A stretch of 18,097 nucleotides of DNA from Oscillospiraceae bacterium (GTDB lineage Bacteria; Bacillota; Clostridia; Saccharofermentanales; Saccharofermentanaceae), in the NCBI GenBank assembly GCA_902767145.1, contig CACXGG010000150.1:1-18097 (forward strand), in the 5' to 3' direction. Below are positions 1,598-16,540 of this stretch, in pieces. Below the pieces are notes generated by a model that was given only the letters and a program-made list of their open reading frames with translations, did no database searches and was not told the origin of the DNA. The translations under genes and the position numbers were made by a program. The first letter of the stretch is position 1. Each line of letters starts with the position of its first letter.

Positions 1598-4452
1598 AGG
1601 AAGTAGGTTCGCTCAAGCCGTCAAAGCCAAAGAAGGCGCTGACCCCCGCGGACAAGAGATATGGCAAAGCCCCGCTCATAGCAGGCATCCTCGCGGCTGT
1701 CTGTTTTATCGCGATGTCCATACTGAGCCGGGTGCATCCCTTAGGTGAATATACCATCCTGGTAAGTGACCTGGAGGCACAGTATGCGCCTTTCCTGTTC
1801 TTCTACAAGAACCACCTTCTCTCACTTCCCCCTTCCCATCTCATATCAGCTCTTTCCTATTCCTTTGCTCTTGGAGCGGGAAAGAATATCATGGGAACCT
1901 TCGGATATTATCTGGCAAGCCCCTTGAACCTTCTGGTGCTCCTGTTTGACGCATCCCAGGTCAACGAATTCGTTCTCCTTCTCATGCTCATAAGGATCTC
2001 CCTGGCATCGTCGTTCATGTGCCTTTTCATCAGGAGAAGGGCGGAGAACAGGCACACCTGGTGGCCGGTGCTCTTCGGTATCATGTATGCCTTCTCTTCA
2101 TATACCACCATCTTCCTCTTCCAGATCATGTGGCTGGACGGCTATATGCTCCTGCCCCTGCTCCTTTATTTTGTGGAGGACTACCTGGAGGAGGAGAAGA
2201 CAAAGGGTCTTATCATCACCCTTCTCCTTCTTTTCCTGACGAACTACTACATCGCATATATGGCAGGCATATTCTCCTTTATCTACCTGCTGGTCAGGAT
2301 GTACATAAGAGGAGACCTTACCAAGTCTGAAAAGCCCTTCAGGAAGATCGGAAAGTTCATACTCACCGCAGTATTCTGCGCCATGACGCTGTGCGTCATC
2401 CTGATCCCCGTAGGACTTGATACCATAAGGAATGCCGATCCCACCCATTCCAGGAATACCGCCAACTATATGTCCTTTACGGCCATAGACCTTCTGGACC
2501 AGATGTTCAACGGAACTCCGGGAGATTTTTCTGATGTGCTCATCGGAAACCTTCCCTTCGTATTCATAAGTACGGTGGTCACCGTCTTCACGGTGATATT
2601 CTTCGTGACAAAGGCCTCTTCAAAGAAAGAGAAGATCGTCTACGGGGTATGTGCCGGCCTTATCTATCTTTCCCTGGCCATCGATGCCCTGGATACGGCA
2701 TGGCAGGTATTTGACTCGCCCAACTGGTTCTGGCACAGGGAGTCCTTCGTATTCATGCCCTTCTTCCTGATCCTGGCATATAAGCTCCTGGAGAGGTTCT
2801 CAAAGGTCACCGTCAGGGAGATCACCATCAGTACGGCCATCGTGCTGGGAGCTCTTTTCCTGGCCCAGAGCCTGGGACAGATAAAGGAGAGGGACGGGGT
2901 ATTCCTGTTCAATCTCATCTTTATCTCCGCCATCGCACTTATCCTGATACTCATGAAGAGGGAGACCTGGCATCCCCAGCTCAAGGATATGCCCCAGATC
3001 CTTCCCTTCCTTCTCAGCCTTCTGACAGTCTTTGAGACAGCCATCATGGGCCCGATCCTGTCAGGCGGCGTATCCACCATGTCACTTCACTATGGTTTCG
3101 CACAGGATTATATCGATTCAGTCCTCGTCATCGAGGACTGTGCCAATGCATCCTCCATCCTGGGTAATTCCTTCAGGAGCGAGATGGAGCAGGACGGCTC
3201 CGGAAAGACTTCCGCCATCGACGACTCCGGCGCATATTACGGCGGATATAACGGCATCTCACTTTTCAATTCCAACTCCAACAAGACCTTCGGCAGGTTC
3301 TTAAAGCAGCTGGGATATAACGTCAACTACAACTACTTCACCGCAGGATATTCCTATGCCGCCCCTGATACGGATGCCTTCTTCTCCATCGGATCCGTAT
3401 ATGTCAGGAGGGATTACACCGCAGCCAGGTTCGTGGCTGAGGACGGCTATGAGCAGGGATTCAAGTTCCTTGTGAATGACGATGTCCTGCCCCTGGCATT
3501 CCCCGTGGATCAGGGCGCCTTTGATTTCGATTTCTATGCTCTTGAGAAGGATGTGACGGACAAGGATTACTTCAGTTTTAGACAGGCCTGGTATGAGTCC
3601 ATGTTCCCCGGATCCTTTGAGGGCGTTTCTTACTTTATCCCGGCAACAGAGGTGGAGGAAGAGGCTGTCAACTACTCCGATTATGACATCAATGCCTACA
3701 TCAATGCCGATGAGGATAAGGAAGAGGATGAGAACGTGGTGGTGGACTTCCTGTCATCAGAAAAGAAGTTCGATCCCGACGATCTTGGCGTGGAGGATCT
3801 TTATGATGCTTCTTCAAGCCTGACCACCATCTACAGGACGAACAAGTCCATCCCCATGATCATCAATTACAGGATCACGGCGGAGTCCTCTGATGAGCTC
3901 TACATGAACCTTTCCTCCCACAGGACCATGAACGGGTGGGTCCTCAGGGTCAACGGCGAGAGATACACGGGATGGCCCGAGTCCACCTTCTATTCCAGCA
4001 TCGTCAGGATCGGATCCTTTGAGGAGGGCTCTGAGATCAATGTCTCCATCGTTGTGGATTCAGACAGCTTCAAGTATCTCTCCGTAAACTTCGCTTATCT
4101 TGATAAAGAGGCCTTTGACGGAGCATTCTCCGGCATCGATACCTCCTCCGTGACAGTGGGCACCACCCAGGACGGCTATGTATCCATGACCTCCGACCTC
4201 ACTGAAGGCCAGGTCATCCTTACCACCATCCCCTATGAAGACGGCTGGACCCTTTATGTAGACGGAGTAAAGACAGATATCACCCCTTATCAGGATGCCC
4301 TTATCGCCATAGATCCCGGAACGGGACACCACGATATAGAGCTGGTATTTACGGCCCCCGGCCTTAAGGCGGGAGCAGTGGTGAGCGTTCTCGGTATCCT
4401 GGGGCTTGTGGGATCTTCTATTATTATCAAAAAAAATAAACAAAGAAAATGA
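1594..4452 (+). CDS. yfhO: YfhO-family membrane protein (probable GT-C type glycosyltransferase)
   Basis: 952 residues, in the normal range for YfhO proteins. A short basic N-terminus (to residue 25) leads into a membrane segment at about 26-46, then the loop SDLEAQYAPF (58-67), an acidic D-x-x-x-Q motif typical of the family and of GT-C first external loops. Around eleven further hydrophobic segments run to about residue 486. A large external domain follows (about 487-922) and a final membrane segment at about 925-944 with a basic cytoplasmic end. B. subtilis YfhO is needed for lipoteichoic acid glycosylation using the lipid-sugar made by CsbB; the divergent GtrB/CsbB-like gene supports a similar role here, though the acceptor is unknown. 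Residues 684-738 form a very acidic insert (21 D/E in 55). The ATG is chosen for the membrane-protein N-terminus; AGAGGA lies at 1585-1590. Confidence 0.88.
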   Translation: MKEVGSLKPSKPKKALTPADKRYGKAPLIAGILAAVCFIAMSILSRVHPLGEYTILVSDLEAQYAPFLFFYKNHLLSLPPSHLISALSYSFALGAGKNIMGTFGYYLASPLNLLVLLFDASQVNEFVLLLMLIRISLASSFMCLFIRRRAENRHTWWPVLFGIMYAFSSYTTIFLFQIMWLDGYMLLPLLLYFVEDYLEEEKTKGLIITLLLLFLTNYYIAYMAGIFSFIYLLVRMYIRGDLTKSEKPFRKIGKFILTAVFCAMTLCVILIPVGLDTIRNADPTHSRNTANYMSFTAIDLLDQMFNGTPGDFSDVLIGNLPFVFISTVVTVFTVIFFVTKASSKKEKIVYGVCAGLIYLSLAIDALDTAWQVFDSPNWFWHRESFVFMPFFLILAYKLLERFSKVTVREITISTAIVLGALFLAQSLGQIKERDGVFLFNLIFISAIALILILMKRETWHPQLKDMPQILPFLLSLLTVFETAIMGPILSGGVSTMSLHYGFAQDYIDSVLVIEDCANASSILGNSFRSEMEQDGSGKTSAIDDSGAYYGGYNGISLFNSNSNKTFGRFLKQLGYNVNYNYFTAGYSYAAPDTDAFFSIGSVYVRRDYTAARFVAEDGYEQGFKFLVNDDVLPLAFPVDQGAFDFDFYALEKDVTDKDYFSFRQAWYESMFPGSFEGVSYFIPATEVEEEAVNYSDYDINAYINADEDKEEDENVVVDFLSSEKKFDPDDLGVEDLYDASSSLTTIYRTNKSIPMIINYRITAESSDELYMNLSSHRTMNGWVLRVNGERYTGWPESTFYSSIVRIGSFEEGSEINVSIVVDSDSFKYLSVNFAYLDKEAFDGAFSGIDTSSVTVGTTQDGYVSMTSDLTEGQVILTTIPYEDGWTLYVDGVKTDITPYQDALIAIDPGTGHHDIELVFTAPGLKAGAVVSVLGILGLVGSSIIIKKNKQRK

Positions 4453-4501: not shown

Positions 4502-6289
4502 ATGAACTACAAAGACACATATCTGATCTGGAGTCAGGACCCTTATTTCGACGAGCAGACAAGACTCGAGCTCGAGAAGATCTCAGGGGACGAAAAGGAA
4601 ATAGAGGACAGGTTCTATAAGGATCTGGAGTTCGGTACAGGAGGACTTAGGGGAGTTCTCGGCGCAGGTACCAACAGGATGAACATCTATACAGTGGCAA
4701 AGGCTTCTGCAGGCCTTGCAAAGTATATCGTTTCCAACGGTGAGGAGGCAATGAAGAGAGGCGTAGCCATCTGCTATGACTCAAGGCACTATTCTCCCGA
4801 GTTTGCACAGATCGCTGCCAGCACATTCGCAGCATACGGCGTTAAGGCTTATCTTTCCGACGAGCTCCGCCCCGTTCCCATGTGCTCTTATTCCGTAAGG
4901 TACTTCGGTGCCTTTGCAGGCGTAATGATCACAGCTTCCCACAACCCGCCCAAGTACAACGGTTACAAGGTATACGGCGAGGACGGCGGCCAGGTAACAA
5001 ATGAGGCTGCTTCCGCCATCCTTTCAAATATGGACGAGTTCTCCGACGTGAGGACCATAAAGAAGACTGATTTCAACGAAGCTGTCGCTTCAGGCCTTAT
5101 CCAGAGATTCGGACCCGAGGTGGATGTAGCTTACCAGGATATGCTCACAGAGCTCATCATCGACAAGGAGGCCATCAGGCGCCAGGGCGATATGAGCATC
5201 GTTTATACACCTCTCCACGGTTCAGGCAACAAGCCTGTCAGGAGGATCCTTAAGAAGGCCGGCTTTAACAACGTTTATGTCGTTCCCCAGCAGGAGCTTC
5301 CCGACGGAGCTTTCCCCACGGTAAAGTCACCTAACCCCGAGGATCCCGCTGCCCTTACCATGGGCATCGAGCTGGCAAAGAAGGTAAATGCTTCCCTTGT
5401 ATTCGGAACAGACCCCGACTCTGACAGGCTCGGTATCGCAGCAAGGAAGGAAGAGAACGGTGAAGTGGTCTACAAGTGCTTCACAGGTAACCAGGTAGGA
5501 CTTATGCTCCTGGACTACATCCTCGATTCCAAGAAGCGTCTCGGAACACTTGAGGACAATTCCTTTGCATGCACCACCATCGTTTCCACAAAGCTCTGCG
5601 CATCCGTATGCCGCGAGTACGGCGTTGAGCTCCAGGAGACACTTACAGGATTCAAGTATATCGGTGAGAGGATCAAGTTCGACGACGAGTTCGGCGACAA
5701 GCACTTCCAGTTCGGTTTCGAGGAGAGCTACGGCTACCTTTCCGGAACATCCGTAAGGGATAAGGATGCTGTCGTTGCAGCTATGCTGGTCTGCGGAATG
5801 GCTGCCCAGTCCTTCGATATGGGTGAGACACTCTTCGACAGACTTGAGAGGATCTACAAGAAGCACGGTTACGGCTTCGAGCAGGCAGTAAGCTTTACAC
5901 TTGAGGGCAAGGAAGGTATCGAGAAGATCGTCAGCGCCATGGACAGCATGAGAACTGATCTTGAGAACTGCAAGTCTTCCTCTGATGCACAGGCTCTCAT
6001 CGGCGGACCTTCCGTAGTCGCAGTAAGGGACTACAGCAAGTCCGTAAGATATGATTTCAGCGGCGACGAGGTAAAGACCTCCGAGCTCACACTTCCCAAG
6101 TCCAACGTTCTCCTCTATGAGCTGGGCGGCGACAAGGGACTTGACTGGGCATGCGCAAGACCTTCCGGTACAGAGCCCAAGCTCAAGATCTATTTCGGTA
6201 TCTACGATTCCACTGAGGACGGCGCAAAGTCACGCCTTGAAGAAGTCAAGGAGCAGATGAGCGCATTCGTCGAAGCAAGACTTAAATAA
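4502..6289 (+). CDS. pgm: Phosphoglucomutase/phosphomannomutase (alpha-D-phosphohexomutase)
   Basis: 595 residues, matching the PgcA/PGM2-like branch of about 580-600. It interconverts hexose-6-phosphate and hexose-1-phosphate in the cytoplasm. All four active-site elements are present: the phosphoserine loop TASHNP with Ser146; the Mg-binding loop DPDSDR at 304-309; the sugar-binding loop GFEESYG at 405-411; and the phosphate-binding RPSGTEPK at 553-560. An early FGTGGLRG is also typical. AGGAAGG lies six bases before the ATG. Position next to a GDP-mannose/GDP-rhamnose pathway suggests it may supply mannose-1-phosphate for ManC, but this branch often acts on glucose, and glucose-1-phosphate for other glycans is equally possible. 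Codons look more optimised (more GGT, GCT, GTT, ACA) than in yfhO, suggesting higher expression. The next gene starts ten bases after the stop, so they are probably co-transcribed. Confidence 0.93.
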   Translation: MNYKDTYLIWSQDPYFDEQTRLELEKISGDEKEIEDRFYKDLEFGTGGLRGVLGAGTNRMNIYTVAKASAGLAKYIVSNGEEAMKRGVAICYDSRHYSPEFAQIAASTFAAYGVKAYLSDELRPVPMCSYSVRYFGAFAGVMITASHNPPKYNGYKVYGEDGGQVTNEAASAILSNMDEFSDVRTIKKTDFNEAVASGLIQRFGPEVDVAYQDMLTELIIDKEAIRRQGDMSIVYTPLHGSGNKPVRRILKKAGFNNVYVVPQQELPDGAFPTVKSPNPEDPAALTMGIELAKKVNASLVFGTDPDSDRLGIAARKEENGEVVYKCFTGNQVGLMLLDYILDSKKRLGTLEDNSFACTTIVSTKLCASVCREYGVELQETLTGFKYIGERIKFDDEFGDKHFQFGFEESYGYLSGTSVRDKDAVVAAMLVCGMAAQSFDMGETLFDRLERIYKKHGYGFEQAVSFTLEGKEGIEKIVSAMDSMRTDLENCKSSSDAQALIGGPSVVAVRDYSKSVRYDFSGDEVKTSELTLPKSNVLLYELGGDKGLDWACARPSGTEPKLKIYFGIYDSTEDGAKSRLEEVKEQMSAFVEARLK

Positions 6290-6298
6290 GAACAGGTC

Positions 6299-7474
6299 GT
6301 GTTAGCATATAATCTTCAGCCGCTCGCAGGAAAGGAACTGACGGGCATCGGATTTTACGCAGCAAACGTAATGGATTCACTTCTGAGGGAGCAGACAGCT
6401 CCCTCAGAATTTCATGTGTTCGATTTTCTGGGGAAGAACGGCGGAGCAGAAACTGCCATGTCCCACCTGGGAAGGTCCATAGACCCCGAAGACCTGAAGA
6501 CGGTAAAGGGCATCCCTCTGTCCGTCTACATAAGGATGGGAAAGCTGGGAAGGATCATCCCCTATGAGAAGCTCACCTCCTCAAAGGCAGACCTCACGGT
6601 ATTCTTCAACTATCTGGCGCCCCTGGGCCTCAAGGGAAAGAACATCATCACCATCTACGACATGGTGTGCGAGAGATATCCGGAGACCATGCAGGGAAGG
6701 AACAGAAGGCTCCTTCAGGGCCATCTGAAGCCCTGTGCGCAGAATGCGGATGCCATAGTCACCATCTCCGACTTCTCGAAAAGAGAGATCATGGAGCTCT
6801 ACGGCATCCCCGAAGAGAAGATCTTCGTGGCATACTGCGGCGTGGACAGGGAGTTCTATAGGCCTGCCGATACTGAAGAAGAAAAGCAGGCTGACCTTCA
6901 GATGGCAAAGGATCTTAAGGGCGAGGGGAGATATATCCTCTATGTGGGAACACTGGAGCCCAGAAAGAATATAGTGAACCTGGTAAAGGCCTTTGAGATC
7001 CTGAAGGGCAGTGAAGGCTTTGAGGACGTAAAGCTGGTGCTGGCCGGAGGTCTCGGATGGCAGCCGGAGGTCACCCTCAGGGCCATCGAAGGATCAGGCG
7101 TGAAGGATCAGATCATCAGGACAGGTTATATATCCCAGGAGCAGAAGAGAGCACTTTACAGATGTGCTGACCTTTTCTGTTTCCCCAGTATCTACGAGGG
7201 ATTCGGAATGCCCGTAACGGAGGCCATGGCCTGCGGAACAAATGTGGTGATCTCAGATTCCTCCAGCCTTCCCGAGGCTTCCTGCGGACTTGCTCCCGGG
7301 GTGGAGATCAACGACGAGGCCGGATTTGCCCTGGAGTTCGAAGAGATATTGAGCGGAAAAAAAGAGATGCCTTCGAAGCAGGAGCTCATTGACGCGGTAT
7401 CCCGCTTCAGCTGGGATAAGGCCGCGGAGGTATACAGACAGGCCATTAAGTATTGCGGTGCGGATTTTCAATAA
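6299..7474 (+). CDS. GT4-family glycosyltransferase
   Basis: 391 residues with a two-domain GT-B layout. The N-terminal half has TGIGFY near residue 17-22; the C-terminal donor-binding half has YVGTLEPRKN, the VLAGG strand and the retaining-GT E-x7-E motif EGFGMPVTE with E300 and E308. It is a cytoplasmic enzyme expected to add a sugar from a nucleotide donor, GDP-mannose or GDP-rhamnose being plausible from context. The start is a GTG: the in-frame stop of the upstream mutase is four codons before it and no other start lies between. The Shine-Dalgarno is poor (AGG at 6294-6296, two bases from GTG), so translation probably depends on coupling to the mutase nine bases upstream. It is most like the GT4 at 16545 in this window (shared TGIG-x-Y and LYVGTLEPRKN), indicating paralogy. 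Confidence 0.88.
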   Translation: MLAYNLQPLAGKELTGIGFYAANVMDSLLREQTAPSEFHVFDFLGKNGGAETAMSHLGRSIDPEDLKTVKGIPLSVYIRMGKLGRIIPYEKLTSSKADLTVFFNYLAPLGLKGKNIITIYDMVCERYPETMQGRNRRLLQGHLKPCAQNADAIVTISDFSKREIMELYGIPEEKIFVAYCGVDREFYRPADTEEEKQADLQMAKDLKGEGRYILYVGTLEPRKNIVNLVKAFEILKGSEGFEDVKLVLAGGLGWQPEVTLRAIEGSGVKDQIIRTGYISQEQKRALYRCADLFCFPSIYEGFGMPVTEAMACGTNVVISDSSSLPEASCGLAPGVEINDEAGFALEFEEILSGKKEMPSKQELIDAVSRFSWDKAAEVYRQAIKYCGADFQ

Positions 7475-7523: not shown

Positions 7524-8540
7524 ATGAAGAGAGCATTGATCACCGGTATTACAGGTCAGGACGGTTCCTACCTTGCCGAACTTCTTCTGGAGAAGGGCTA
7601 TGAGGTCTATGGTATCTGGAGAAGAAAGGCATTTGTCGATTACGGAAATATCGGACACCTGAAGGATAAGGTACATCTTATCTATGCCGACATGACAGAC
7701 CCTGTCTCACTCATCTCTGCAATGAAGATCTCACAGGCTGACGAGGTATATAACCTGGCAGCCCAGTCCTTCGTTTCCACCAGCTGGGATACACCCATCG
7801 GAACAGCTGATATCGACGGTATCGGCGTTACAAATATGCTGGAGGCCATAAGGATCGTTAAGCCCGAGTGCCGTTTCTACCAGGCATCCACATCTGAGAT
7901 GTTCGGTAAGGTACAGGCTATCCCCCAGAACGAGGATACTCCTTTCTATCCCAGATCACCCTACGGAGTCGCAAAGCTCTACGGTCACTGGATCACAAAG
8001 AACTACAGGGAGAGCTACGACATGTTCGCATGCTCCGGTATCCTCTTTAACCATGAGTCCGAGAGAAGAGGACTCGAGTTCGTAACAAGAAAGATCACAC
8101 ATGCTGCAGCAAAGATCTCCCTTGGTCTTCAGGACCATGTGGAGCTGGGAAATCTCTCCGCCAAGAGGGACTGGGGTCATTCCCAGGACTATGTAAAGGC
8201 CATGTATCTCATGCTCCAGGCAGATGCTCCTGACGACTATGTCGTTGCAACAGGCGAGACCAGGATGGTCCGTGAGTTCGCTGAGATCGCATTCAGGCAC
8301 GTCGGCTTCGATATCACCTGGGAAGGTGAGGGCGTTGACGAGAAGGGTATCGACAGGAAGACAGGAAAGGTCCTGGTATCCGTCAATCCCGCATTCTTCC
8401 GTCCCGCTGAGGTAGACCTTCTCCTTGGAGATCCCACAAAGGCTGAGACTAAGCTTGGCTGGAAGAGGGAGATCAGCTTCCCTGAGCTCGTTGAGAGAAT
8501 GGTCAGGAATGACCTTGAGATCGTTAAGAAAGAGGTCTGA
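7524..8540 (+). CDS. gmd: GDP-mannose 4,6-dehydratase
   Basis: 338 residues, an extended SDR-family enzyme near the length of compact bacterial Gmd proteins. It converts GDP-D-mannose to GDP-4-keto-6-deoxy-D-mannose in the cytoplasm. The nucleotide-binding G-x-x-G-x-x-G is TGITGQDGSY (G8, G11, G14). The catalytic set reads STSEMFG (T123, E125) and SPYGVAK (Y147, K151), and NHESERRG follows at 176-183, all diagnostic of Gmd. A strong AGGGGGA site lies six bases before the ATG. The gene begins an eight-gene run to 14583 with gaps of 16 bases or less. Its product is the direct substrate of the reductase encoded immediately downstream. Codons look optimised, as in the mutase. Confidence 0.95.
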   Translation: MKRALITGITGQDGSYLAELLLEKGYEVYGIWRRKAFVDYGNIGHLKDKVHLIYADMTDPVSLISAMKISQADEVYNLAAQSFVSTSWDTPIGTADIDGIGVTNMLEAIRIVKPECRFYQASTSEMFGKVQAIPQNEDTPFYPRSPYGVAKLYGHWITKNYRESYDMFACSGILFNHESERRGLEFVTRKITHAAAKISLGLQDHVELGNLSAKRDWGHSQDYVKAMYLMLQADAPDDYVVATGETRMVREFAEIAFRHVGFDITWEGEGVDEKGIDRKTGKVLVSVNPAFFRPAEVDLLLGDPTKAETKLGWKREISFPELVERMVRNDLEIVKKEV

Positions 8541-8542
8541 TC

Positions 8543-9478
8543 TTGGCTGCTGAAGGTAAGAAAGCCCTCATAATCGGCATATGCGGTTTTGCCGGATCTG
8601 CTCTCCGCAAGGAGCTGACAGCTTCCGGATATGATGTATACGGCGTGGATATCATCTCCACGGACGACCGTGTCATACCCGCTGATATGCTGGATAAACA
8701 TACATGCGAGACCATAATATCGGACATGAAGCCCGATATCATCTTTAACCTGGCAGGTCAGGCTTCCCCCATCATCAGCTGGAAGGACATCGACCTTACC
8801 ATGAAGCTCAATGTCAATCTTTCCGTAAACGTGGCAGAGGCAGTTAGAAAGTCCTGCCCGGAGACGCGCATGGTCTTTATAGGTTCTGCAAACCAGTATG
8901 ACCTGAGGATATATAAGGAGGAGCTCATCACCGAGGATGCACCGGTATCAGATGATTCCCCCTATTCCGTTTCCAAGAATACCCAGGAGGCTCTCCTGAA
9001 GCTCCTTAAGGACAGATATGACCTGGATATGGTCTTCACCAGATCCTTCAACCATATAGGCCCGGGACAGAAGCCCGGATTTGTCATCACCGACTATGCC
9101 AAGAGGATAGCCGACCTTGAGAATGGAAGGATCGATACCTTTGAGTACGGTAACCTGGATTCCTGCAGGGACTTCTCTGACGTCAGGGATGTGGCCTGCG
9201 CCTACAGGCTCCTGGGAGAGAAGGGAAAGAGCGGAAAGATCTATAACGTGGGCTCCGGAAAGAGCTTTTATATCAGGGACCTGGTGGGCCACCTCATCGG
9301 GCTGAGCAAAGAGGCATCCGGGAAGACCACCCTTCCCCCGAAGGCTCCCGAAGGATCCCTTATCCACTTCAGGGCCGATATCTCATCCCTTAAGGAAGAT
9401 ACGGGCTTTGAGCCGCAGTTTGATGTATATGAGACGATAGAAAGCGTACTGGAGACATACCGTAGGAATTATGCTTGA
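8543..9478 (+). CDS. rmd: GDP-4-keto-6-deoxy-D-mannose reductase (GDP-D-rhamnose synthesis)
   Basis: 311 residues, an extended SDR. It has the Rossmann motif GICGFAG (G12, G15, G18), a serine motif GSANQY (S115), YSVSK (Y141, K145), and RSFNHIGPGQ at 167-176. The last resembles the RPFNHIGPGQ signature of Rmd and differs from fucose synthase (Fcl/WcaG), so the predicted product is GDP-D-rhamnose. The start is TTG at 8543, two bases after the gmd stop, with AGAGG (8531-8535) seven bases upstream inside gmd; there is no ATG near the required N-terminus. The stop overlaps the next ATG by eight bases. The main alternative is another SDR acting on the Gmd product, such as a 6-deoxy-talose-forming reductase; pairing and motif favour Rmd. 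Confidence 0.85.
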   Translation: MAAEGKKALIIGICGFAGSALRKELTASGYDVYGVDIISTDDRVIPADMLDKHTCETIISDMKPDIIFNLAGQASPIISWKDIDLTMKLNVNLSVNVAEAVRKSCPETRMVFIGSANQYDLRIYKEELITEDAPVSDDSPYSVSKNTQEALLKLLKDRYDLDMVFTRSFNHIGPGQKPGFVITDYAKRIADLENGRIDTFEYGNLDSCRDFSDVRDVACAYRLLGEKGKSGKIYNVGSGKSFYIRDLVGHLIGLSKEASGKTTLPPKAPEGSLIHFRADISSLKEDTGFEPQFDVYETIESVLETYRRNYA

Positions 9479-10250
9479 CGAATTTAAAGAGATATATAAA
9501 TACCGTGAGATGATCTACAGCATGGTAAGGAAAGACCTCCGTGGCAGATATAAAGGATCTGTCCTGGGATTTTTGTGGACCTTTATCAACCCCCTGCTGC
9601 AGCTCCTTGTATACAATATGGTCTTTTCCATCATCCTTCGAAATGACATAGAGAAGTTCTATCTCTTCCTTTTCGTAGCGCTGATACCCTGGATGTTCTT
9701 CTCCGCCTCCATCACCGGCGGATCGGTATCCATCATCTCCCAGAAGGACCTTATAAAGAAGATCTATTTCCCCAGGGAGATAATCCCCATCTCCTATGTA
9801 ACTTCGTGTTTTGTAAATATGCTCCTGAGCTTTATCGTCGTTATCATCGTCGTTTTCGCTTCGGGAGTAAGACCCACCCTGACGGGACTTATCCTTCTGC
9901 CCGCCATTATGATCATCGAATATCTCCTGGCCCTTGGCATCGCCATGATAACATCGGCCGTTACTGTATATTTCAGGGACCTCGAACATATCCTGGGCAT
10001 CATCTCCATGGCATGGATGTATGCAACCCCCATATGTTATCCCGAGAGTCTCTGTCCCGAAAAATACCGTTTCCTTTTCCACCTGAACCCTATGACTTCC
10101 ATCGTGGAGGCCTACAGGGCGGTGCTCTACTACGGAACGGTGCCCGACATGTCCACTCTTCTGGAGTCAGTAGTCCTGGGACTTGTTTTCCTCACGGCTG
10201 GATGTGTCGTTTTTGGAAAGCTCAAGAAGCACTTTGCGGAGGAACTGTGA
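9471..10250 (+). CDS. wzm: ABC-2 type polysaccharide export permease
   Basis: 259 residues, standard for Wzm/TagG/RgpC permeases. It begins with a cytoplasmic amphipathic region (YREMIYSMVRKDLRGRYKGS) followed by six hydrophobic segments, including the conserved LGFLWTFINPLLQLLVY at about 31-47 and a late ATPICYPESL re-entrant-like stretch at about 184-193. Two copies would form the channel that moves a lipid-linked glycan across the cytoplasmic membrane. The ATG overlaps the rmd stop by eight bases with only a weak GTAGGA upstream, so coupling is likely. The ATPase follows after one base. The gene set (D-rhamnose synthesis, Wzt with C-terminal domain) argues for polysaccharide rather than teichoic acid as cargo, but teichoic acid is not excluded by this protein alone. 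Confidence 0.93.
   Translation: MLDEFKEIYKYREMIYSMVRKDLRGRYKGSVLGFLWTFINPLLQLLVYNMVFSIILRNDIEKFYLFLFVALIPWMFFSASITGGSVSIISQKDLIKKIYFPREIIPISYVTSCFVNMLLSFIVVIIVVFASGVRPTLTGLILLPAIMIIEYLLALGIAMITSAVTVYFRDLEHILGIISMAWMYATPICYPESLCPEKYRFLFHLNPMTSIVEAYRAVLYYGTVPDMSTLLESVVLGLVFLTAGCVVFGKLKKHFAEEL
10238..10244 (+). promoter_or_regulatory. Ribosome binding site deciding the wzt start
   Basis: GGAGGAA at 10238-10244 lies seven bases before ATG 10252. The frame stays open to 10183, but a start there would have no such site, would overlap the permease by 68 bases and would add 23 residues unlike the family. Confidence 0.8.
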
Positions 10251-10251
10251 T

Positions 10252-11517
10252 ATGGCAGAGAACGAAAATATCAGCAGCGAGTACGCAATACGTGTAAAGA
10301 ACGTTACAAAGCAGTTCAAGGTCTACTATGACAAGGGCTCCAGCCTCAAGGAGAAGATCATCTTCAGGGGCAGGAACAGATATGAGAACAGGACTGTCCT
10401 GGACGGTATATCCCTTGATATAAAAAAGGGCGACGCCGTTGGTCTCGTAGGCCATAACGGATGCGGTAAGAGTACACTTCTCAAGCTCATGACCAGGATC
10501 CTCTATCCCGACAGCGGTGAGATCGAGGTGCAGGGAAGGGTATCATCCCTTATCGAGCTGGGTGCCGGCTTCCATCCGGATATGAGCGGCAGGGAGAATA
10601 TCTACACCAATGCTTCCATCTTCGGACTCTCCAAGAAGGAGATCGACAGCAGGCTTGATGATATCATCAATTTCTCCGAGCTCGGTGAATTTATAGATAA
10701 CCCGGTAAGGACATATTCCTCCGGAATGTATATGAGGCTCGCCTTCTCCGTAGCCATCAACGTTGATGCGGACGTGCTCCTCATCGATGAGATCCTGGCT
10801 GTAGGTGATGCCAACTTCCAGTCCAAGTGCTTTGCAAAGCTCCAGGAGATAAAGGCTGCAGGCACCACCATCGTCATCGTATCCCACTCCCTGAAGCAGA
10901 TCGAGCAGATCTGCAACAGATCCATCTGGATCCACGGAGGCAAGATCAGGTCCGACGGAGTCCCCAATGATGTCCATATGGATTATCTGGACTACATGAG
11001 CGAGGTCCGTAAGACGAATGCCCTCCTGTCCAGCATGACAGAGGAGCAGAAGGCTGCCTATGACAAGGAGAAGAAGCTCCGCTGGGGCAACGGCGACGCG
11101 ACTATAGAGACCGTAAAGGTAACTGACAAGGACGGCAAGGAGGGAAACCTTTTCGAGGTTGGTGCCGAGATCCATTTCAGGGTGGGCTACAAGGTCAATA
11201 AGCCCATCGACGACGCCGTTTTCGGTATAGGTATCTTCAGGCCCGACGGACTTAACGTGTACGGAACGAATACCAGGATCGACGGATTTAAGCGTTTCGA
11301 TCTCAAGGAGGACGGATATTTTGATATAGTGCTCCCTAAGTATTCACTCCTTCCCTCCAAATATATAGTGGGCTTTTCCATAGAGTACGGGGAGGGCATT
11401 CCCGTGGACTACTGGAAGACAGCGTGTGAGATAGAGACATTTACGAATATCAGCGATATCGGAACCATAAGGCTCGACCACGACTGGGGCTTTTCTGACG
11501 CTGACATAAAGAAGTGA
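10252..11517 (+). CDS. wzt: ABC exporter ATPase with C-terminal glycan-recognition domain
   Basis: 421 residues. The nucleotide-binding domain (1 to about 245) shows Walker A GHNGCGKST at 67-75 (K73), the signature YSSGM at 155-159, Walker B VLLIDE ending at E180, and the switch histidine H212. A linker leads into a second domain (about 277-421) starting RWGNGDATIE and containing a later VYGTNTR. This is the Wzt C-terminal beta-sandwich pattern that, in E. coli O8/O9a-type systems, binds a modified non-reducing end of the finished glycan before export. TagH and RgpD-type ATPases lack this form. It acts with the permease one base upstream. The domain predicts that the glycan carries a terminal modification, yet no methyltransferase or kinase gene is visible in the window. 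Confidence 0.93.
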   Translation: MAENENISSEYAIRVKNVTKQFKVYYDKGSSLKEKIIFRGRNRYENRTVLDGISLDIKKGDAVGLVGHNGCGKSTLLKLMTRILYPDSGEIEVQGRVSSLIELGAGFHPDMSGRENIYTNASIFGLSKKEIDSRLDDIINFSELGEFIDNPVRTYSSGMYMRLAFSVAINVDADVLLIDEILAVGDANFQSKCFAKLQEIKAAGTTIVIVSHSLKQIEQICNRSIWIHGGKIRSDGVPNDVHMDYLDYMSEVRKTNALLSSMTEEQKAAYDKEKKLRWGNGDATIETVKVTDKDGKEGNLFEVGAEIHFRVGYKVNKPIDDAVFGIGIFRPDGLNVYGTNTRIDGFKRFDLKEDGYFDIVLPKYSLLPSKYIVGFSIEYGEGIPVDYWKTACEIETFTNISDIGTIRLDHDWGFSDADIKK

Positions 11518-11522
11518 CCCCC

Positions 11523-11527
11523 GGAGG
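11523..11527 (+). promoter_or_regulatory. Ribosome binding site deciding the start of the first small protein
   Basis: GGAGG at 11523-11527. Two consecutive ATG codons follow at 11531 and 11534; the second gives the better six-base spacing, the first only three. Confidence 0.6.
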
Positions 11528-11533
11528 CATATG

Positions 11534-11941
11534 ATGGAAGAGATCAATGTTGAGAAGATAATGGAGAGCATAAGAGAGGAGATAAAGACCTCGGGAGCTG
11601 ACAAGATCCCGTTGTCCTTTGATGACAGCAGGAACCATCTTCCCTCATCGGAGGATGCATCTGACAGGCTCTCCGCCGCCATCAAGTACCTTTCCTATAA
11701 CTACGAGGTGCAGCCCTACCAGATGCTGACAGGAAACCCTGTAAAGGTATTTATCAAGAAGGTCTTCAGAAAGATCGGAAGCTTCTTCTTTATCCCCATC
11801 GTGGGACAGCAGAATATACTCAACTACCACTTCTTCCTGGTATCCGAGGCTGTTGCTGACCAGAAGAACGAGATAGAGGAGCTCAAGGGTATCCTTGAGG
11901 ACCTTAACGGCAGGATCGATAAGCTGGAGGGCAGGTCATAA
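11534..11941 (+). CDS. Small polysaccharide-cluster protein A (amphipathic helix plus coiled coil)
   Basis: 135 residues; no enzyme motif. In order: a charged helix INVEKIMESIREEI at 4-17; a polar linker; a conserved-looking NYEVQPYQ at 56-63; a basic/hydrophobic stretch NPVKVFIKKVFRKIGSFFF at 68-86 that could lie on or dip into the membrane; then PIVGQQNILN at 88-97 and a heptad-like coiled coil to the end. This order (x-V-x-x-IM-x-x-IR at the start, basic helix, P-x-V-x-x-Q-N-x-x-N, coiled coil) is one I recognise as the N-terminal part of larger methyltransferase or glycosyltransferase proteins in polysaccharide loci, here without any catalytic domain. It lies 16 bases after wzt and one base before a second protein sharing residues 84-132. 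Role unknown; a membrane-bound scaffold or length-setting partner is inference. Confidence 0.85.
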   Translation: MEEINVEKIMESIREEIKTSGADKIPLSFDDSRNHLPSSEDASDRLSAAIKYLSYNYEVQPYQMLTGNPVKVFIKKVFRKIGSFFFIPIVGQQNILNYHFFLVSEAVADQKNEIEELKGILEDLNGRIDKLEGRS

Positions 11942-11942
11942 G

Positions 11943-12320
11943 ATGAGTACCGCCAGAGAAGATATCGCGGCCCTTATCCCCGACGCAGAAGAGCTTAAGG
12001 GAAAGGTATCCATCCCTCTCGAGTTCGAGAAGATAAGCATGCTGGCAGGCGTGTCGGTGGACGATGCCCTGGACGGCACCATGACAAAGCTCCGGGAAAA
12101 GCACGAGGTCATCCCCCAGTACAGGAATATAAAGGAAAAGACCGGCGGCATGATGTACGGTTTCTACATAAACCCCGCCGTCAGGCACCAGAATGATATA
12201 AACAAGGCGCTCTTTGAGGTGTTCGAGGAGTTCGAAAAGCTCACTGAGGAGAAGAATCAGCTCCTGGACCGGATCAATAAGGCCAGGACAAAGCTGGAAA
12301 GACTGGAGAAGGAAAGATGA
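11943..12320 (+). CDS. Small polysaccharide-cluster protein B (coiled coil, related to protein A)
   Basis: 125 residues, no enzyme motif. The N-terminal part (1-70) does not match protein A. From residue 74 it aligns without gaps to A (offset ten): P78, V80, Q83, N84 and N87 match the P-x-V-x-x-Q-N-x-x-N core, and the rest (about 88-125) is a highly charged coiled coil. I count 12 identities in 49 positions, nine of them in the first 22. It lacks A's basic hydrophobic stretch, having MMYGFYI instead. The ATG at 11943 is used because the frame upstream (to 11895) lies inside gene A and AGGT (11933-11936) precedes this ATG. Its stop overlaps the next glycosyltransferase start as ATGA. An A/B heteromeric coiled coil is a natural hypothesis; function unknown. 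Confidence 0.85.
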   Translation: MSTAREDIAALIPDAEELKGKVSIPLEFEKISMLAGVSVDDALDGTMTKLREKHEVIPQYRNIKEKTGGMMYGFYINPAVRHQNDINKALFEVFEEFEKLTEEKNQLLDRINKARTKLERLEKER

Positions 12321-13387
12321 GGATATTCCAGGTACTGACAACCCTTTCCTTCGGAGATGCGGTAAGTAACGACTGTATCGCCATCAAGGAGCTTCTCAAA
12401 AAGAACGGATACAAGACCATGATCTATGCCGAGAATATCGGAAAGAAGGTCACGGATCCTGATGTTAAGCCCTATAACAGGATGCCCAGGCTCAAGAAGG
12501 ACGATGTCATCCTCTATCATCTCTCCACGGGAACGGCACTTAACCTTAAGATAAAGGACCTTCCCTGCAGGAAGTACATGATCTACCACAATACCACGCC
12601 TCCTGATTTCTTCGTTCCCTACAGCGGCAAGCTTGCCAAGCTCTGTAACAACGGAATAGAGGAGACAAAGGCACTTAAGGATACATTTAACGGTGTCTTC
12701 GCCGTATCGCAGTTCAATGCCGGCCAGCTCAGGAGCTTCGGGTATACATGTGAGATGAAGATAAGGCCCATCCTTATCCCCTTTGATGACTATAAAAAAG
12801 AGCCCGATAAAGAGACCGCTGAGCGGATGCGTTCCGATGATGCTAAGAACATCCTTTTCGTGGGAAGGATCGCTCCCAACAAGAAGCAGGAGGATCTTAT
12901 CTCTCTACTTTATGCATACAGGCAGATGTACAGTGATCCCGTAAGGCTCATCCTGGCGGGAAGCCCCTCCGGTATGGAGAAATATATGGCAAGGCTCAAG
13001 TGTTATGCCGATTCCCTGGGGCTTAAGGATATCGTCTTTACGGGACAGATCTCCTTCCCGAAGATCCTGGCTTATCTGAGCACCGCAGACTGCTTCGTAT
13101 CCATGAGCGAGCACGAGGGCTTCTGCGTTCCCCTGGTGGAGGCAATGCAGTTCAATGTGCCCATCCTGGCATATTCCTCCACGGCCATACCCGAGACACT
13201 CGGCGGGACAGGTATCCTTCTGGACAGCAAGGATCCTTCCTATGCCGCAGCACATCTCCATGAGATCCTGAATAACGAAGACCTCAGAAAGAAGATGGTC
13301 CTGGAGCAGTCGGAAAGACTTAAGGACTTTTCCTATGAGAATATATCGGCTCTCTTTATGAAGCAGCTCAAGGAGTTTATCGGATAA
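12317..13387 (+). CDS. GT4-family glycosyltransferase
   Basis: 356 residues, GT-B fold. The N-terminus MRIFQVLTTLSFGDAVSND is a form I associate with GT4 enzymes of ABC-dependent polysaccharide loci. The C-terminal half has ILFVGRIAPNKKQ and the E-x7-E motif EGFCVPLVE (E267 and E275) followed by PILAYSSTAIPETLGG. It probably transfers D-rhamnose or D-mannose from a GDP donor onto the growing lipid-linked chain on the cytoplasmic face; the linkage cannot be read from sequence. ATG overlaps the preceding stop as ATGA with GGAGAAGGAAAG just upstream, and its own stop overlaps the next start by one base (TAATG), so translation along this stretch is coupled. Confidence 0.9.
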   Translation: MRIFQVLTTLSFGDAVSNDCIAIKELLKKNGYKTMIYAENIGKKVTDPDVKPYNRMPRLKKDDVILYHLSTGTALNLKIKDLPCRKYMIYHNTTPPDFFVPYSGKLAKLCNNGIEETKALKDTFNGVFAVSQFNAGQLRSFGYTCEMKIRPILIPFDDYKKEPDKETAERMRSDDAKNILFVGRIAPNKKQEDLISLLYAYRQMYSDPVRLILAGSPSGMEKYMARLKCYADSLGLKDIVFTGQISFPKILAYLSTADCFVSMSEHEGFCVPLVEAMQFNVPILAYSSTAIPETLGGTGILLDSKDPSYAAAHLHEILNNEDLRKKMVLEQSERLKDFSYENISALFMKQLKEFIG

Positions 13388-14583
13388 TGAAGATCTGTTT
13401 TGTGGTACAGAGATATGGTGAGGAAGTAAATGGCGGCGCCGAAGCATATGCAAGGCAGGTGGCCGAGCATATGGTGAGCCTTGGAGGCCACGAGGTGGAA
13501 TGTGCCACCACATGCGCCGTGGACTATATGACCTGGAAGAATGAATATCCTGCAGGTGATACTGTCCTGAACGGAGTTACTGTCCACAGGTTCCCCAACA
13601 AGAGGCAGAGAGATCCCGAGAAGTTCTCAAAGCTCTGCGGAAAGATCCTGGGAAACCCAAATGTCACCAGAAAAGAGCAGGAGGACTGGATGAGGGATCA
13701 GGGCCCCGAATGTCCCGAGCTCGTATCCTGGGTAAAGTCGAAGCATGATGATTTCGACTGCTTTATCTTTGTCTGCTATCTTTATTACTCAACATATTTT
13801 GCTCTCCCCGGGGTCGCCGACAAGGCCATCTTTATACCCACGGCCCACGAGGAGGCTCCCATACATCTCGATATCTTCAACGATATGTTCGACCTTCCTG
13901 CAGGCTTTTACTACAACACCGTGGAGGAGAAGGAACTTACCAACAGGCTCTTTCCCTCTTCCAAGGACAAGCCCGATAACAAGGGAAAGGGCGGCGTAGG
14001 CGTTGAGGTCCCCGAAAACGTGGATCCCGATGCCTTCCGTAAGAAGTTCGGTATCGAGGGAGACTTCATGCTCTATGTGGGCAGGATCGACGAGAATAAG
14101 TGCTGCCCGGAGCTCTTTACGTATTTCGATGAGTTCAGGAAGAGAAATAAAGACCTGGATATCAAGCTGGTCCTTATGGGCAAGGAGGTCATCAAGGTCC
14201 CTAAGAGGGATGATATCATCTCCCTGGGCTTTGTCAGCGAGGAGGATAAGTTCTCCGGCATAAAGGCATCCACCTTCTTTATCCTGCCCTCAAAGTTCGA
14301 AAGCCTTTCCATCGTGGTCCTGGAATCCATGAAGATGGGGATCCCCTGTCTCGTCTCAGGAGAGTGCGATGTCCTTAAGGGCCACTGTCTGAGAAGCAAC
14401 GCCGGCCTTTATTATTCAGGCTATTATGAGTTTGAGGGCTGCGTTAAGTATCTTCTCGGAAATCCCGAAGTCAGGGAGAAGATGGGAAGGAACGGCGTTT
14501 CTTATGTGGACAGGGATTATACCTGGCCTGAACTCGTCAGAGGTTATGAGGATCTGATCACCAGGGTAACCGGTATCAGCTGA
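13387..14583 (+). CDS. GT4-family glycosyltransferase
   Basis: 398 residues, GT-B fold. The start MKICFVVQRYGEEVNGGAE (1-19) and the following CATTCAVDYMTWKNEYPAG are typical of a GT4 subgroup found in O-antigen and capsule loci. The C-terminal half shows MLYVGRIDENK and the E-x7-E motif ESLSIVVLE (E305 and E313). Likely substrate is a GDP-linked mannose or rhamnose by context. It starts one base inside the previous stop, with AAGGAG at 13370-13375. It is the last gene of the gmd operon, and its final eight bases TCAGCTGA are also the final eight bases of the convergent HAD gene. There is no room for an intrinsic terminator between them. Confidence 0.9.
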   Translation: MKICFVVQRYGEEVNGGAEAYARQVAEHMVSLGGHEVECATTCAVDYMTWKNEYPAGDTVLNGVTVHRFPNKRQRDPEKFSKLCGKILGNPNVTRKEQEDWMRDQGPECPELVSWVKSKHDDFDCFIFVCYLYYSTYFALPGVADKAIFIPTAHEEAPIHLDIFNDMFDLPAGFYYNTVEEKELTNRLFPSSKDKPDNKGKGGVGVEVPENVDPDAFRKKFGIEGDFMLYVGRIDENKCCPELFTYFDEFRKRNKDLDIKLVLMGKEVIKVPKRDDIISLGFVSEEDKFSGIKASTFFILPSKFESLSIVVLESMKMGIPCLVSGECDVLKGHCLRSNAGLYYSGYYEFEGCVKYLLGNPEVREKMGRNGVSYVDRDYTWPELVRGYEDLITRVTGIS

Positions 14584-15385
14584 CCTTCGGCAGGATGAAT
14601 TCAAAGACGGCCTTAGCGAAACCGTCATCTTCACAGTTGGATGTAATATAGGAAGCGTGCTCAAAGAGCCTTTCGTCGCTGTTTCCCATGGCGATGCCGT
14701 ATCCTGCATCCTTTATCATGGACAGGTCGTTTTCCCCGTCTCCCAGGGCAAAGGTCATATCCCGTGGGACTCCCAGCATATCTGCCAGCATGAGAAGACC
14801 TTTTCCCTTTGTATTTCCCTCCTTCATAACATCGAAGTAGGTATAGGCGGAACTTACCAGCTCCAGTCCCTCAATGGCCTGAAGAGCTGAAACTATCTCA
14901 TCATCCGGGGAGATGAGGAGGAACTTGTTTACGTCGGGGATGTGGCCGTTTATATCAAAGTCGTATACCGGGGCCTTAAGATCCTCCGGGATACTGTCAT
15001 TGTACTTTTCGAAAAAAGGTCTCCTGGAACTTTTGGGCAGGAAGAAGATGCCCTCGGGGCTGTATGCCGTGGCGTCGGTCCCCTTTTCGATGAAAAGGGA
15101 GGAGAGCTCTTTTACCTTTTCCCTGTCCAGCAGGGAGGAGCAGACTTCTTTTCTTGCGACAGGATCAAAGAGGGACGCACCGTTACTTGTGATGAGGGGC
15201 ACCTTTATATCCAGCTCCCGGGCAAAGGTCCCGGTGGCAAAGGAACTCCTTCCCGTAGCAAGGGTAAGGGCGCCTCCTGCATCCCGGATGGCCCGGACTG
15301 CTTCTATATTTTTGGAAGATATGGGCATACCGGTAACTAAAAGTGTATAATCCATATCTGTTGCAACAAGAAATCTGTAACCCAT
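14576..15385 (-). CDS. Cof-type HAD-family hydrolase (probable sugar-phosphate phosphatase)
   Basis: 269 residues from the chosen start. HAD motifs: I, TDMDYTL with nucleophile D10 and acid D12; II, ATGRS with T44; III, K193 in NTKGKG; IV, GDGENDLSM at 215-223 (D216, D220). The position after D12 is Tyr where Cof members normally have Gly. The long middle cap domain (about 85-185) fits the Cof/IIB class, whose members dephosphorylate sugar phosphates, nucleotides or cofactors; specificity is not predictable. The ATG at 15385 starts directly at the family N-terminus; an in-frame TTG at 15424 would add 13 unlikely residues. No Shine-Dalgarno is visible, and a -10-like TAAAAT ends seven bases before the ATG, so the message may be leaderless. 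It sits in opposite orientation between the gmd operon and manC. Confidence 0.88.
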   Translation of the reverse strand: MGYRFLVATDMDYTLLVTGMPISSKNIEAVRAIRDAGGALTLATGRSSFATGTFARELDIKVPLITSNGASLFDPVARKEVCSSLLDREKVKELSSLFIEKGTDATAYSPEGIFFLPKSSRRPFFEKYNDSIPEDLKAPVYDFDINGHIPDVNKFLLISPDDEIVSALQAIEGLELVSSAYTYFDVMKEGNTKGKGLLMLADMLGVPRDMTFALGDGENDLSMIKDAGYGIAMGNSDERLFEHASYITSNCEDDGFAKAVFEFILPKVS

Positions 15386-15392
15386 GGGAACG

Positions 15393-15424
15393 ATTTTACA
15401 ATAAAAAGTACTTAAATGGTACAA
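15393..15424 (-). promoter_or_regulatory. Predicted promoter of the HAD gene (possibly leaderless)
   Basis: Minus strand TTGTAC (15424-15419) and TAAAAT (15398-15393) with a long 20-base spacer; the bases before TAAAAT include TG. Seven bases separate the -10 from ATG 15385, the spacing of leaderless transcripts. It is superimposed on the manC promoter. Confidence 0.35.
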
Positions 15425-15425
15425 T
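15395..15425 (+). promoter_or_regulatory. Predicted promoter of manC
   Basis: TTTACA (15395-15400, five of six consensus), a 19-base spacer and TACAAT (15420-15425) preceded by TGG, an extended -10. The predicted start near 15432 leaves a leader of about 26 bases with GGGGGA (15448-15453), the geometry seen at pgm and gmd. The -35 overlaps the -10 of the opposing HAD promoter and vice versa. Confidence 0.5.
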
Positions 15426-15457
15426 ATGAGGAAGAACGATCAATGACGGGGGAAGTT

Positions 15458-16540
15458 ATGAAGAAGACGGCAGTTATTATGGCAGGCGGCGGCGGAACCA
15501 GATTCTGGCCCGTATCCAGGATGACCACACCTAAGCAGCTGGCAAAGCTCACAGGCGATGATGTAATGATCAATGAGACCATCAAGCATTTCGACCACAT
15601 CATCTCCAGGGAAGATACATTTATCGTAACTAACGAGAAGCAGGCTGAGCTCATGAGCAACATCCTCTTCGAGGAAGTGGACAGATCCCATATCCTCATC
15701 GAGCCGGTGCAGATGAATACTGCCCCCTGTATCCTCTATGCCGCCCTCACCATGAAAAAGCTCTATGGTGACGCCGTTATGGCAGTCCTTCCCTCCGACC
15801 ACTATATCGGGGATATAAGAGAATATGAGAGAGTCCTGAAGCTGGCCATGGATACGGCTGAGGAGACAGATAAGATAGTTACCATCGGTATACGCCCTTC
15901 CTTCCCCTCCACGGGTTACGGCTATATCAGGTTCTCAAGAGATCCCATCGCTTCGGGATCCGAAGTATATAACCTCAGAAGGTTCGTTGAAAAGCCCGGC
16001 CTTTCCATCGCCAGGGAATATGTGGACTCCGGAAGATATCTCTGGAACTCCGGAATGTTCATCTGGAAGGCTTCAGTCATCCTTGACTGCTTTAAGAGAT
16101 ACCTTCCCGACATGTATGAGAAGATGGAGGCAGTCTACGACAGACTGGAAACACCTGACGAGAAGGCAGCCATCGCAGAAGTATATCCCACTCTTGAAAA
16201 GGTATCCGTCGACTACGGCATCATGGAAAAGGCAGAGGGAGTCCTCTGTATCCCCGCCGAGTTCGGATGGAACGATGTGGGTTCCTGGGATGCCCTGGAT
16301 AAGGTGTTCAAGACAGACAGCAAGGGCAATGTCATCGTAGGAAAGACAGAGCTCATCGACTGCAGCAACAACGTATTCTTCGATAAGTCGGGCGACCGCC
16401 TTATCACCGCCATCGGCATAAAGGACACTGTGGTCGTACAGACTGATGATGCCATCATGGTATGTTCAAAGGACTGCGTCCAGGACGTAAAGCTCATGGT
16501 GGACAGGCTCAAGGCCACGGGAAGAGAGGACCTTCTCTGA
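15458..16540 (+). CDS. manC: Mannose-1-phosphate guanylyltransferase
   Basis: 360 residues, the single-domain form; the C-terminal phosphomannose isomerase domain of the roughly 480-residue bifunctional enzymes is absent. It makes GDP-mannose from GTP and mannose-1-phosphate, feeding Gmd. The N-terminal nucleotide-binding motif is AGGGGTRFWPVSR, followed by TPKQLAKL. Further family signatures are LPSDHYI, RFVEKPG, WNSGMFIW and WNDVGSWDAL. ATG 15458 gives the canonical KKTAVIMAGG opening and has GGGGGA at 15448-15453. An in-frame ATG at 15443 with GAGGAAG (15428-15434) is possible, but that site would fall at the predicted transcription start. A GT4 gene begins four bases after the stop. Confidence 0.93.
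   Translation: MKKTAVIMAGGGGTRFWPVSRMTTPKQLAKLTGDDVMINETIKHFDHIISREDTFIVTNEKQAELMSNILFEEVDRSHILIEPVQMNTAPCILYAALTMKKLYGDAVMAVLPSDHYIGDIREYERVLKLAMDTAEETDKIVTIGIRPSFPSTGYGYIRFSRDPIASGSEVYNLRRFVEKPGLSIAREYVDSGRYLWNSGMFIWKASVILDCFKRYLPDMYEKMEAVYDRLETPDEKAAIAEVYPTLEKVSVDYGIMEKAEGVLCIPAEFGWNDVGSWDALDKVFKTDSKGNVIVGKTELIDCSNNVFFDKSGDRLITAIGIKDTVVVQTDDAIMVCSKDCVQDVKLMVDRLKATGREDLL

Follow-up and report, generated by a model that had tools for sequence, protein, structure and literature searches.

Stand-alone paired copies of a Bacillota anchoring module as a candidate membrane scaffold beside a predicted D-rhamnose-glycan exporter

Gene content of the locus and features of A and B

The window analysed here is the whole 18,097-nucleotide stretch of contig C150, part of a metagenome-assembled Oscillospiraceae genome that is 78% complete. 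It encodes, in order, a YfhO-like membrane protein, a phosphohexomutase, the glycosyltransferase GT4a, GDP-mannose 4,6-dehydratase (GMD), an SDR reductase, the exporter components Wzm and Wzt, and two small proteins, A and B, followed by the glycosyltransferases GT4b and GT4c, a HAD-type phosphatase on the opposite strand, a ManC-like protein and GT4d (Table 1); the phosphohexomutase, GT4a and the phosphatase were named by inspection, without a family search. The placement of the phosphatase on the opposite strand after GT4c is shared by the window and 11 of the 14 genus-type loci L022-L035. The closest solved structure to the reductase is 2pk3, a GDP-6-deoxy-D-lyxo-4-hexulose reductase (E 1.3e-52); together with the TIGR01472 match of GMD this points to GDP-D-rhamnose as a donor, and the glycan exported by Wzm/Wzt is predicted to be a D-rhamnose polymer. 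Analysis of Wzt identified a Wzt_C domain (Pfam, E 6.3e-25), and the best solved relative of the protein was 8dku, described as the Aquifex transporter (PMC9445017).

Table 1. Coordinates of features in the window and of partial GT4 genes in related loci
Locus	Feature	Coordinates	Strand	Description
Window	GMD, GDP-mannose 4,6-dehydratase	7524..8540	+	TIGR01472 above cut-off
Window	Reductase, probably RMD (GDP-D-rhamnose synthesis)	8543..9478	+	Best PDB match 2pk3
Window	Wzm, ABC-2 membrane component of exporter	9471..10250	+	Pfam/NCBIfam
Window	Wzt, ATPase with C-terminal Wzt_C carbohydrate-binding domain	10252..11517	+	Pfam
Window	Gene A	11534..11941	+	135 aa; alternative in-frame ATG at 11531
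Window	Gene B	11943..12320	+	125 aa; by profile a paralogue of A, without basic helix
Window	GT4b glycosyltransferase	12317..13387	+	Pfam Glycos_transf_1; proposed partner recruited by A:B
Window	GT4c glycosyltransferase	13387..14583	+	Next after GT4b in window-type loci
Window	HAD-type phosphatase	14576-15424	-	Inspection
Window	ManC-like mannose-1-phosphate guanylyltransferase	15416..16540	+	Pfam; TIGR01479 below its cut-off
L024	Partial GT4 gene (C-terminal part only)	9492-9953		Wzt-A gap
L025	Partial GT4 gene (C-terminal part only)	2365-2970		Wzt-A gap
L026	Partial GT4 gene (C-terminal part only)	9517-9975		Wzt-A gap
L031	Partial GT4 gene (C-terminal part only)	5876-6940		Wzt-A gap
L072	Partial GT4 gene	11308-11913		Between A and GT4b; C-terminal part only

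The two small genes that the original prediction had placed at 11534..12320 are both present, exactly where it put them. They are separated by one base, and B overlaps GT4b by 4 bases. Protein A comprises an N-terminal helix of the IMxxIR type, a basic amphipathic helix at residues 69-86, the motif QNxxN at 93-97 and a coiled coil of five heptads; in B the QNxxN motif lies at 83-87 and the coil keeps the register of A's. The statement that neither protein has a catalytic motif is borne out by Pfam and NCBIfam searches, in which no model reached its cut-off in A or B and no catalytic domain was identified. A PDB search with the profile of A returned weak matches only (best E 0.12). No convincing transmembrane segment was detected in either protein, the best 19-residue hydropathy means being 1.35 for A and 0.89 for B; the basic amphipathic helix of A may lie on the inner face of the membrane. 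Comparison with the nearest relative, L022, gave dN/dS values of 0.047 for A and 0.063 for B, against 0.038 for GT4b and 0.035 for Wzm.

Comparison of the two proteins revealed the ungapped match originally described between residues 84-132 of A and 74-122 of B, with 13 identities in the 49 positions and not the 12 first counted. With shuffled A and B sequences, the best 49-residue window had a mean of 9.9 identities and a maximum of 12, with 12 reached in 5 of 60 shuffles, and BLASTP of A against B gave E 0.001; taken alone, the pairwise match is a weak signal of kinship. Alignment of the A family with the B family by hhalign gave a probability of 97.2 (E 4.4e-11, 118 columns), and the HMMs of the two families each recovered members of the other. 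The profile searches place A and B in related families, confirming the module that they were said to share, and by this measure the two are remote paralogues. Their relationship spans most of their length, and the N-termini are therefore less different than had been proposed. The contrast drawn in the membrane-contacting helix stood, with a hydrophobic moment of 0.47 and a net charge of +5 for A 69-86 versus 0.21 and +1 for B 62-79.

Distribution of the module and the search for a terminator

A search of 99 related genomes with A matched 19, one of them spuriously (G035); true matches were found in 18 of the 59 genomes of the genus and in none of the 40 genomes that represent the order's other families. 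Matches in G031:C155 and G035:C90 (551-aa frames) fell inside unrelated proteins and were rejected. Named relatives carrying A were Saccharofermentans-like Clostridia from rumen and gut. A scan of named genomes yielded 26 loci, all 26 with Wzt, so that homologues do not occur mainly outside glycan loci. Twelve of these loci (L036-L047) were of a Ruminococcus flavefaciens type, in which Wzm and Wzt are followed by an additional gene and then by A, GT4b and two more GT4 genes. The additional gene was a coiled-coil methyltransferase in the five loci read (checked against Pfam in one), and its closest PDB entry was 3dli (E 6.5e-48).

We also examined the position of A and B relative to GT4b, for which 36 matches were obtained in 33 of 85 congeneric genomes, with 30 of them fetched as loci. 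A and B were found upstream of GT4b in 28 of the 30 loci, and the remaining two (L103 and L105) end inside GT4b; in the 28 assessable loci A and B were always adjacent, with an A frame of only 98 aa in L106. Presence was counted from stop-to-stop frames because a simple ORF picker drops A or B under longer antisense frames; it lost B in the window and in L026, and one or other of the two genes in several further loci. In G013, G021 and G047, which lie beyond the 30 loci, A-like modules adjoin GT4b. Stand-alone modules thus stand beside GT4b in 31 of the 33 genomes, the other two being cut by contig ends. In a spacing survey of 33 loci, the picker found a stand-alone module in 30, and the last module started or ended -20 to +19 bases from GT4b in 27 of these; in the other three, B was missed by the picker (window and L026) or a partial GT4 gene intervenes (L072). 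These analyses identify A and B as conserved, coupled genes between Wzt and GT4b in Saccharofermentans-like Clostridia, and their homology and near-constant position between Wzt and GT4b are supported by computation. G013 and G021 carry a duplication of the whole module-GT4b pair, in the order module, GT4b, module, GT4b (L070:7344-10600 and L071:10083-12739), as if each GT4b had its own scaffold protein. Single stand-alone modules were present in G232 (99% complete) and G105 (85%), neither of which had a match to the R. flavefaciens methyltransferase. R. flavefaciens and G232 have one stand-alone module, so the A/B pair is not universally needed.

Searches with module profiles gave matches in 10 of 391 genomes at class level and in 11 of 398 at phylum level, both samples containing the window's own genome. 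In the 15 matched genomes outside the genus, the module was fused to a SAM methyltransferase in 10 and stood alone in two (G232 and G105); in two it was cut by a contig end (L064 of G343 and L127 of G701, which end inside the module and were counted neither as stand-alone nor as fused), and in G830 it was a broken match of 50 aa, which was dropped. The original prediction of an N-terminal module on methyltransferases in polysaccharide loci is thereby supported for Wzm/Wzt loci. Its extension to glycosyltransferases is not, as no intact fusion was seen and the only case was an open frame in L031 that joins a GT4 remnant to A. The fused proteins, including L033 and L035, measured 383-527 aa and often began with an IMxxIR-type helix, followed by an SHR-type motif, a basic helix, WY, a QNxxN-like motif, a coil that varies in length and the methyltransferase. 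Their gene lies directly after Wzt in six of seven phylum-level cases (not L124) and also in L063 and L067. This place and architecture, together with the source label on a distant relative (P0043), make the fused proteins look like chain terminators. The module profile matched A and B in their own genome, partly by construction as both are in the profile; independent support for their membership comes from the hhalign comparison of A with B and from the A-family HMM, which matched fused L033 and L035. Neither A nor B carries a fused methyltransferase, in agreement with the claim that the module here is split off and doubled. No Pfam model covered the module in the R. flavefaciens A, L018 or L033 proteins, and a plasmid search with the fused N-terminus gave no matches.

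To assess the terminator, the 33 GT4b genomes were searched for a terminator-type methyltransferase, 19 with the R. flavefaciens protein and 14 with the fused protein of L033. None was found in 26 of the 33, many of which are incomplete; among the 15 good genomes (completeness of 90% or more, contamination of 5% or less), 11 were without one and 4 had one. Absence of a recognisable terminator in most carriers is likewise a computational result. Matches at E <1e-60 were obtained in seven genomes. In G418, G489 and G499 the methyltransferase was on the same contig as GT4b; in G484 it lay in a Wzm-Wzt locus cut by the contig end (L143); and in G037, G486 and G498 it was on a different contig, those of G486 and G498 being without the module. 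Four further genomes gave weak, uncounted matches (E 5.9e-5 to 9.9e-4), including the window's own, which is only 78% complete and where the match was generic (E 9.9e-4). Wzt_C is retained in the window's Wzt although no capping methyltransferase was found in this search.

L069 and the L033-type loci carry a fused methyltransferase together with A and B. In L025 and L031 Wzt and A are separated by a C-terminal GT4 fragment, present as a small gene or an in-frame extension, whose best match was the full GT4 preceding A in terminator-bearing L069 (E 2e-15 and 5e-12, respectively); L024 and L026 have a similar piece whose origin is less clear. The partial GT4 genes may be what is left of a lost GT4, or they may encode half-enzymes that still work. 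In L031 the partial GT4 and A share one open frame. From these observations we infer, as the simplest history, that the methyltransferase and an L069-like GT4 were lost and A and B were kept. A tree of the module (54 sequences, 76 columns, many forks unresolved) placed B in one group and A in another (99/98 each), with single R. flavefaciens proteins and L072 as the neighbours of A on a long branch (94/83). The A of L069 grouped with the other A sequences, and the B proteins of L069, L033 and L032 with the other B sequences, which indicates that the split of A and B probably predates loss of the terminator. As a candidate marker of this loss we considered a Wzt signature, PVDYW in window-type loci versus PVDYY in most terminator-bearing ones. 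It also tracks kinship, is broken by L066 and takes neither form in L063, and the solved 8dku sequence aligns up to residue 353 only; no conclusion was drawn from it.

Coiled-coil pairing and proposed role of A and B

The coiled coil attributed to both proteins was recovered by heptad periodicity and structure prediction. AlphaFold2 modelled A as three helices, the last spanning residues 69-134 (mean pLDDT 72.4, with 71-91 over the long helix; pTM 0.29), and B on a similar plan with its last helix at 63-124 (mean pLDDT 63.6, low in the first half, pTM 0.35); confidence in these models is moderate, and the terminal helices are predicted to be 62-66 residues long. With the residue after QNxxN as the starting point, the coils of both proteins fall in a common heptad register, in which a/d positions were hydrophobic in 85% and 81% of cases (A and B, respectively) versus 13% and 17% elsewhere. 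The observed excess was reached in 0 of 1000 column shuffles, so the periodicity of the coil has computational support, and the coil is short at about five heptads.

Analysis of g-e' charge pairs in a parallel, in-register arrangement across 28 loci revealed 107 attractive and 2 repulsive pairs for A:B, compared with 86 and 16 for A:A and 50 and 30 for B:B. Shifting B by one heptad reduced the A:B fit to 49/49 or 48/24, and 0 of 1600 sampled permutations of the B heptads reached the observed value. In the 15 loci less than 70% alike, the counts were 56/1 for A:B, 44/10 for A:A and 30/12 for B:B. The A:B fit exceeded both homomers in only 17 of the 28 loci, and favourable values were also obtained for A:A shifted by one heptad (92/16) and for antiparallel A:B shifted by +1 (75/24) or -2 (28/5). 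On this charge pattern, A and B likely form a parallel A:B heteromer.

In Gram-negative systems the coiled-coil protein is described as a membrane-associated scaffold whose membrane-proximal region recruits the polymerase; the terminator occupies the far end, which restricts capping to long chains (PMC11231755; for WbdD, PMC3482155). Capped chains are reported to be bound by the carbohydrate-binding domain of Wzt, the Aquifex cap being a methylated rhamnose or mannose (PMC9445017). A and B correspond to the membrane-proximal half without the far end, and A:B is therefore proposed to anchor GT4b beside Wzm/Wzt. We consider it fairly probable that A and B are stand-alone, duplicated descendants of the anchoring module and form a membrane-bound A:B scaffold by which GT4b is brought to the exporter of a predicted D-rhamnose glycan. 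The basic amphipathic helix of A would anchor the pair at the inner face of the membrane; QNxxN would open the parallel, in-register coiled coil; and the pair would keep GT4b, perhaps together with GT4c, close to Wzm/Wzt at the membrane, much as WbdA is recruited by the membrane-proximal end of WbdD. The predicted D-rhamnose polymer would then be built next to its exporter. With no methyltransferase on the distal end of the coil in window-type loci, the length of the chains would depend on stoichiometry, on some capping enzyme or on export. Recruitment of GT4b is suggested here by its gene adjacency to A and B and, like membrane binding and any effect on chain length, by analogy with these systems. 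Points against the scaffold are the favourable A:A charges, the lead of A:B over both homomers in only 17 of 28 loci, the favourable antiparallel shifts, the missing basic helix of B, the moderate confidence of the AlphaFold2 models and the single module of R. flavefaciens and G232; the Wzt_C domain kept in window-type Wzt also counts against it, and suggests that some capped or marked chain end is still recognised. More tentatively, the locus might represent ABC-dependent assembly free of a terminator, in which a scaffold cut from its methyltransferase and doubled acts as an obligate A:B heteromeric coil that alone controls where, and perhaps how long, D-rhamnose chains are made, with Wzt_C reading a different end; we regard this as possible but less likely than not.

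Retention of Wzt_C would also fit a two-part ruler of chain length, in which the A:B rod spaces the polymerase from a separate capping enzyme that is encoded elsewhere or is of another type. Such a ruler is in keeping with the three of 33 genomes whose methyltransferase is away from the A/B contig, and with the loci (L069 and L033-type) in which fused methyltransferase, A and B occur together. The missing methyltransferase family in 26 of 33 genomes, including 11 of the 15 good ones, and the shortness of the coil beside fused forms of 383-527 aa make the ruler unlikely. The A:A charges, the basic helix found in A and not in B, and the single modules that suffice in R. flavefaciens, G232 and G105 could alternatively mean that the scaffold is a homomer of A only, with B, a related but non-pairing protein, acting as an adaptor for Wzt or GT4b. 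This would leave unexplained why the coil of B is kept in the register of A, why A and B adjoin in every assessable locus, and why the A:B charge fit is the cleanest and is lost on a one-heptad shift of B, and we judge it distinctly improbable. That A and B are the eroding remains of a terminator since lost, as the apparent loss of the methyltransferase and part of the adjacent GT4 and the short A frame of L106 might hint, is scarcely credible given dN/dS values of 0.05-0.06 near those of Wzm and GT4b, frames for both genes in 28 of 28 assessable loci and a conserved coil.

Comparison with known systems

According to a 2025 review, descriptions of the ABC-transporter-dependent capsule mechanism are confined to Gram-negative bacteria (PMC12220298), although Gram-positive rhamnose wall polysaccharides and S-layer glycans are reported to use ABC exporters (PMC4931226, PMC2943079). 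For the methyl-capped Gram-positive rhamnan, the S-layer review leaves the length factor open, stating for the WsaE-type glycan that an additional one may be needed (PMC2943079). In the open-access literature covered, we found no description of the module. In several Bacillota families its anchor and coil are joined to a methyltransferase; detached and doubled as it is here, the module offers a naturally occurring split between scaffold and terminator and, in A and B, a pair of tiny proteins suited to probing scaffold function by itself.

Chain-length regulators of the Wzz/PCP type resemble A and B in being non-catalytic, in having coiled-coil motifs and in their place in polysaccharide loci. 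They are described as having transmembrane regions and a periplasmic domain (PMC12220298), whereas A and B have no convincing transmembrane segment. WsaE of the Geobacillus S-layer glycan, compared here by its description only, is one trifunctional enzyme with a methyltransferase and two GT domains; its system shares a Gram-positive rhamnan, Wzm/Wzt and methyl capping (PMC2943079). The stand-alone A of R. flavefaciens is 36-42% identical over the aligned part and also lies directly before GT4b, but it is present in one copy, and in the five loci read a coiled-coil methyltransferase is encoded separately upstream of it. The Bacillota fusion (L063, L067, L122-L126, L128 and L129) has the same module by profile and, in most cases, the same place after Wzt; it is one protein with a methyltransferase, whereas A and B are two separate proteins, both lacking it.

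WbdD of E. coli O8/O9a, to which the pair was first likened, is a chain-terminating methyltransferase or kinase-methyltransferase. The comparison is the right one in that A and B would work like part of a WbdD. They share with it a coiled coil, a membrane-proximal helix (predicted, in A), a Wzm/Wzt locus with the cap-binding type of Wzt and, by analogy, the proposed scaffold role for polymerases that is described for WbdD (PMC11231755, PMC3482155). To call them a WbdD would be unfair, as they lack the catalytic terminator that WbdD possesses. In WbdD the catalytic part comes first and the membrane and recruitment part last, and this order is reversed in the Bacillota fusion. Coiled-coil scaffold and terminator proteins of ABC-dependent glycan assembly are thus already known; what is new is the Bacillota form with its reversed order, along with the version of it that is detached, doubled and free of a terminator.
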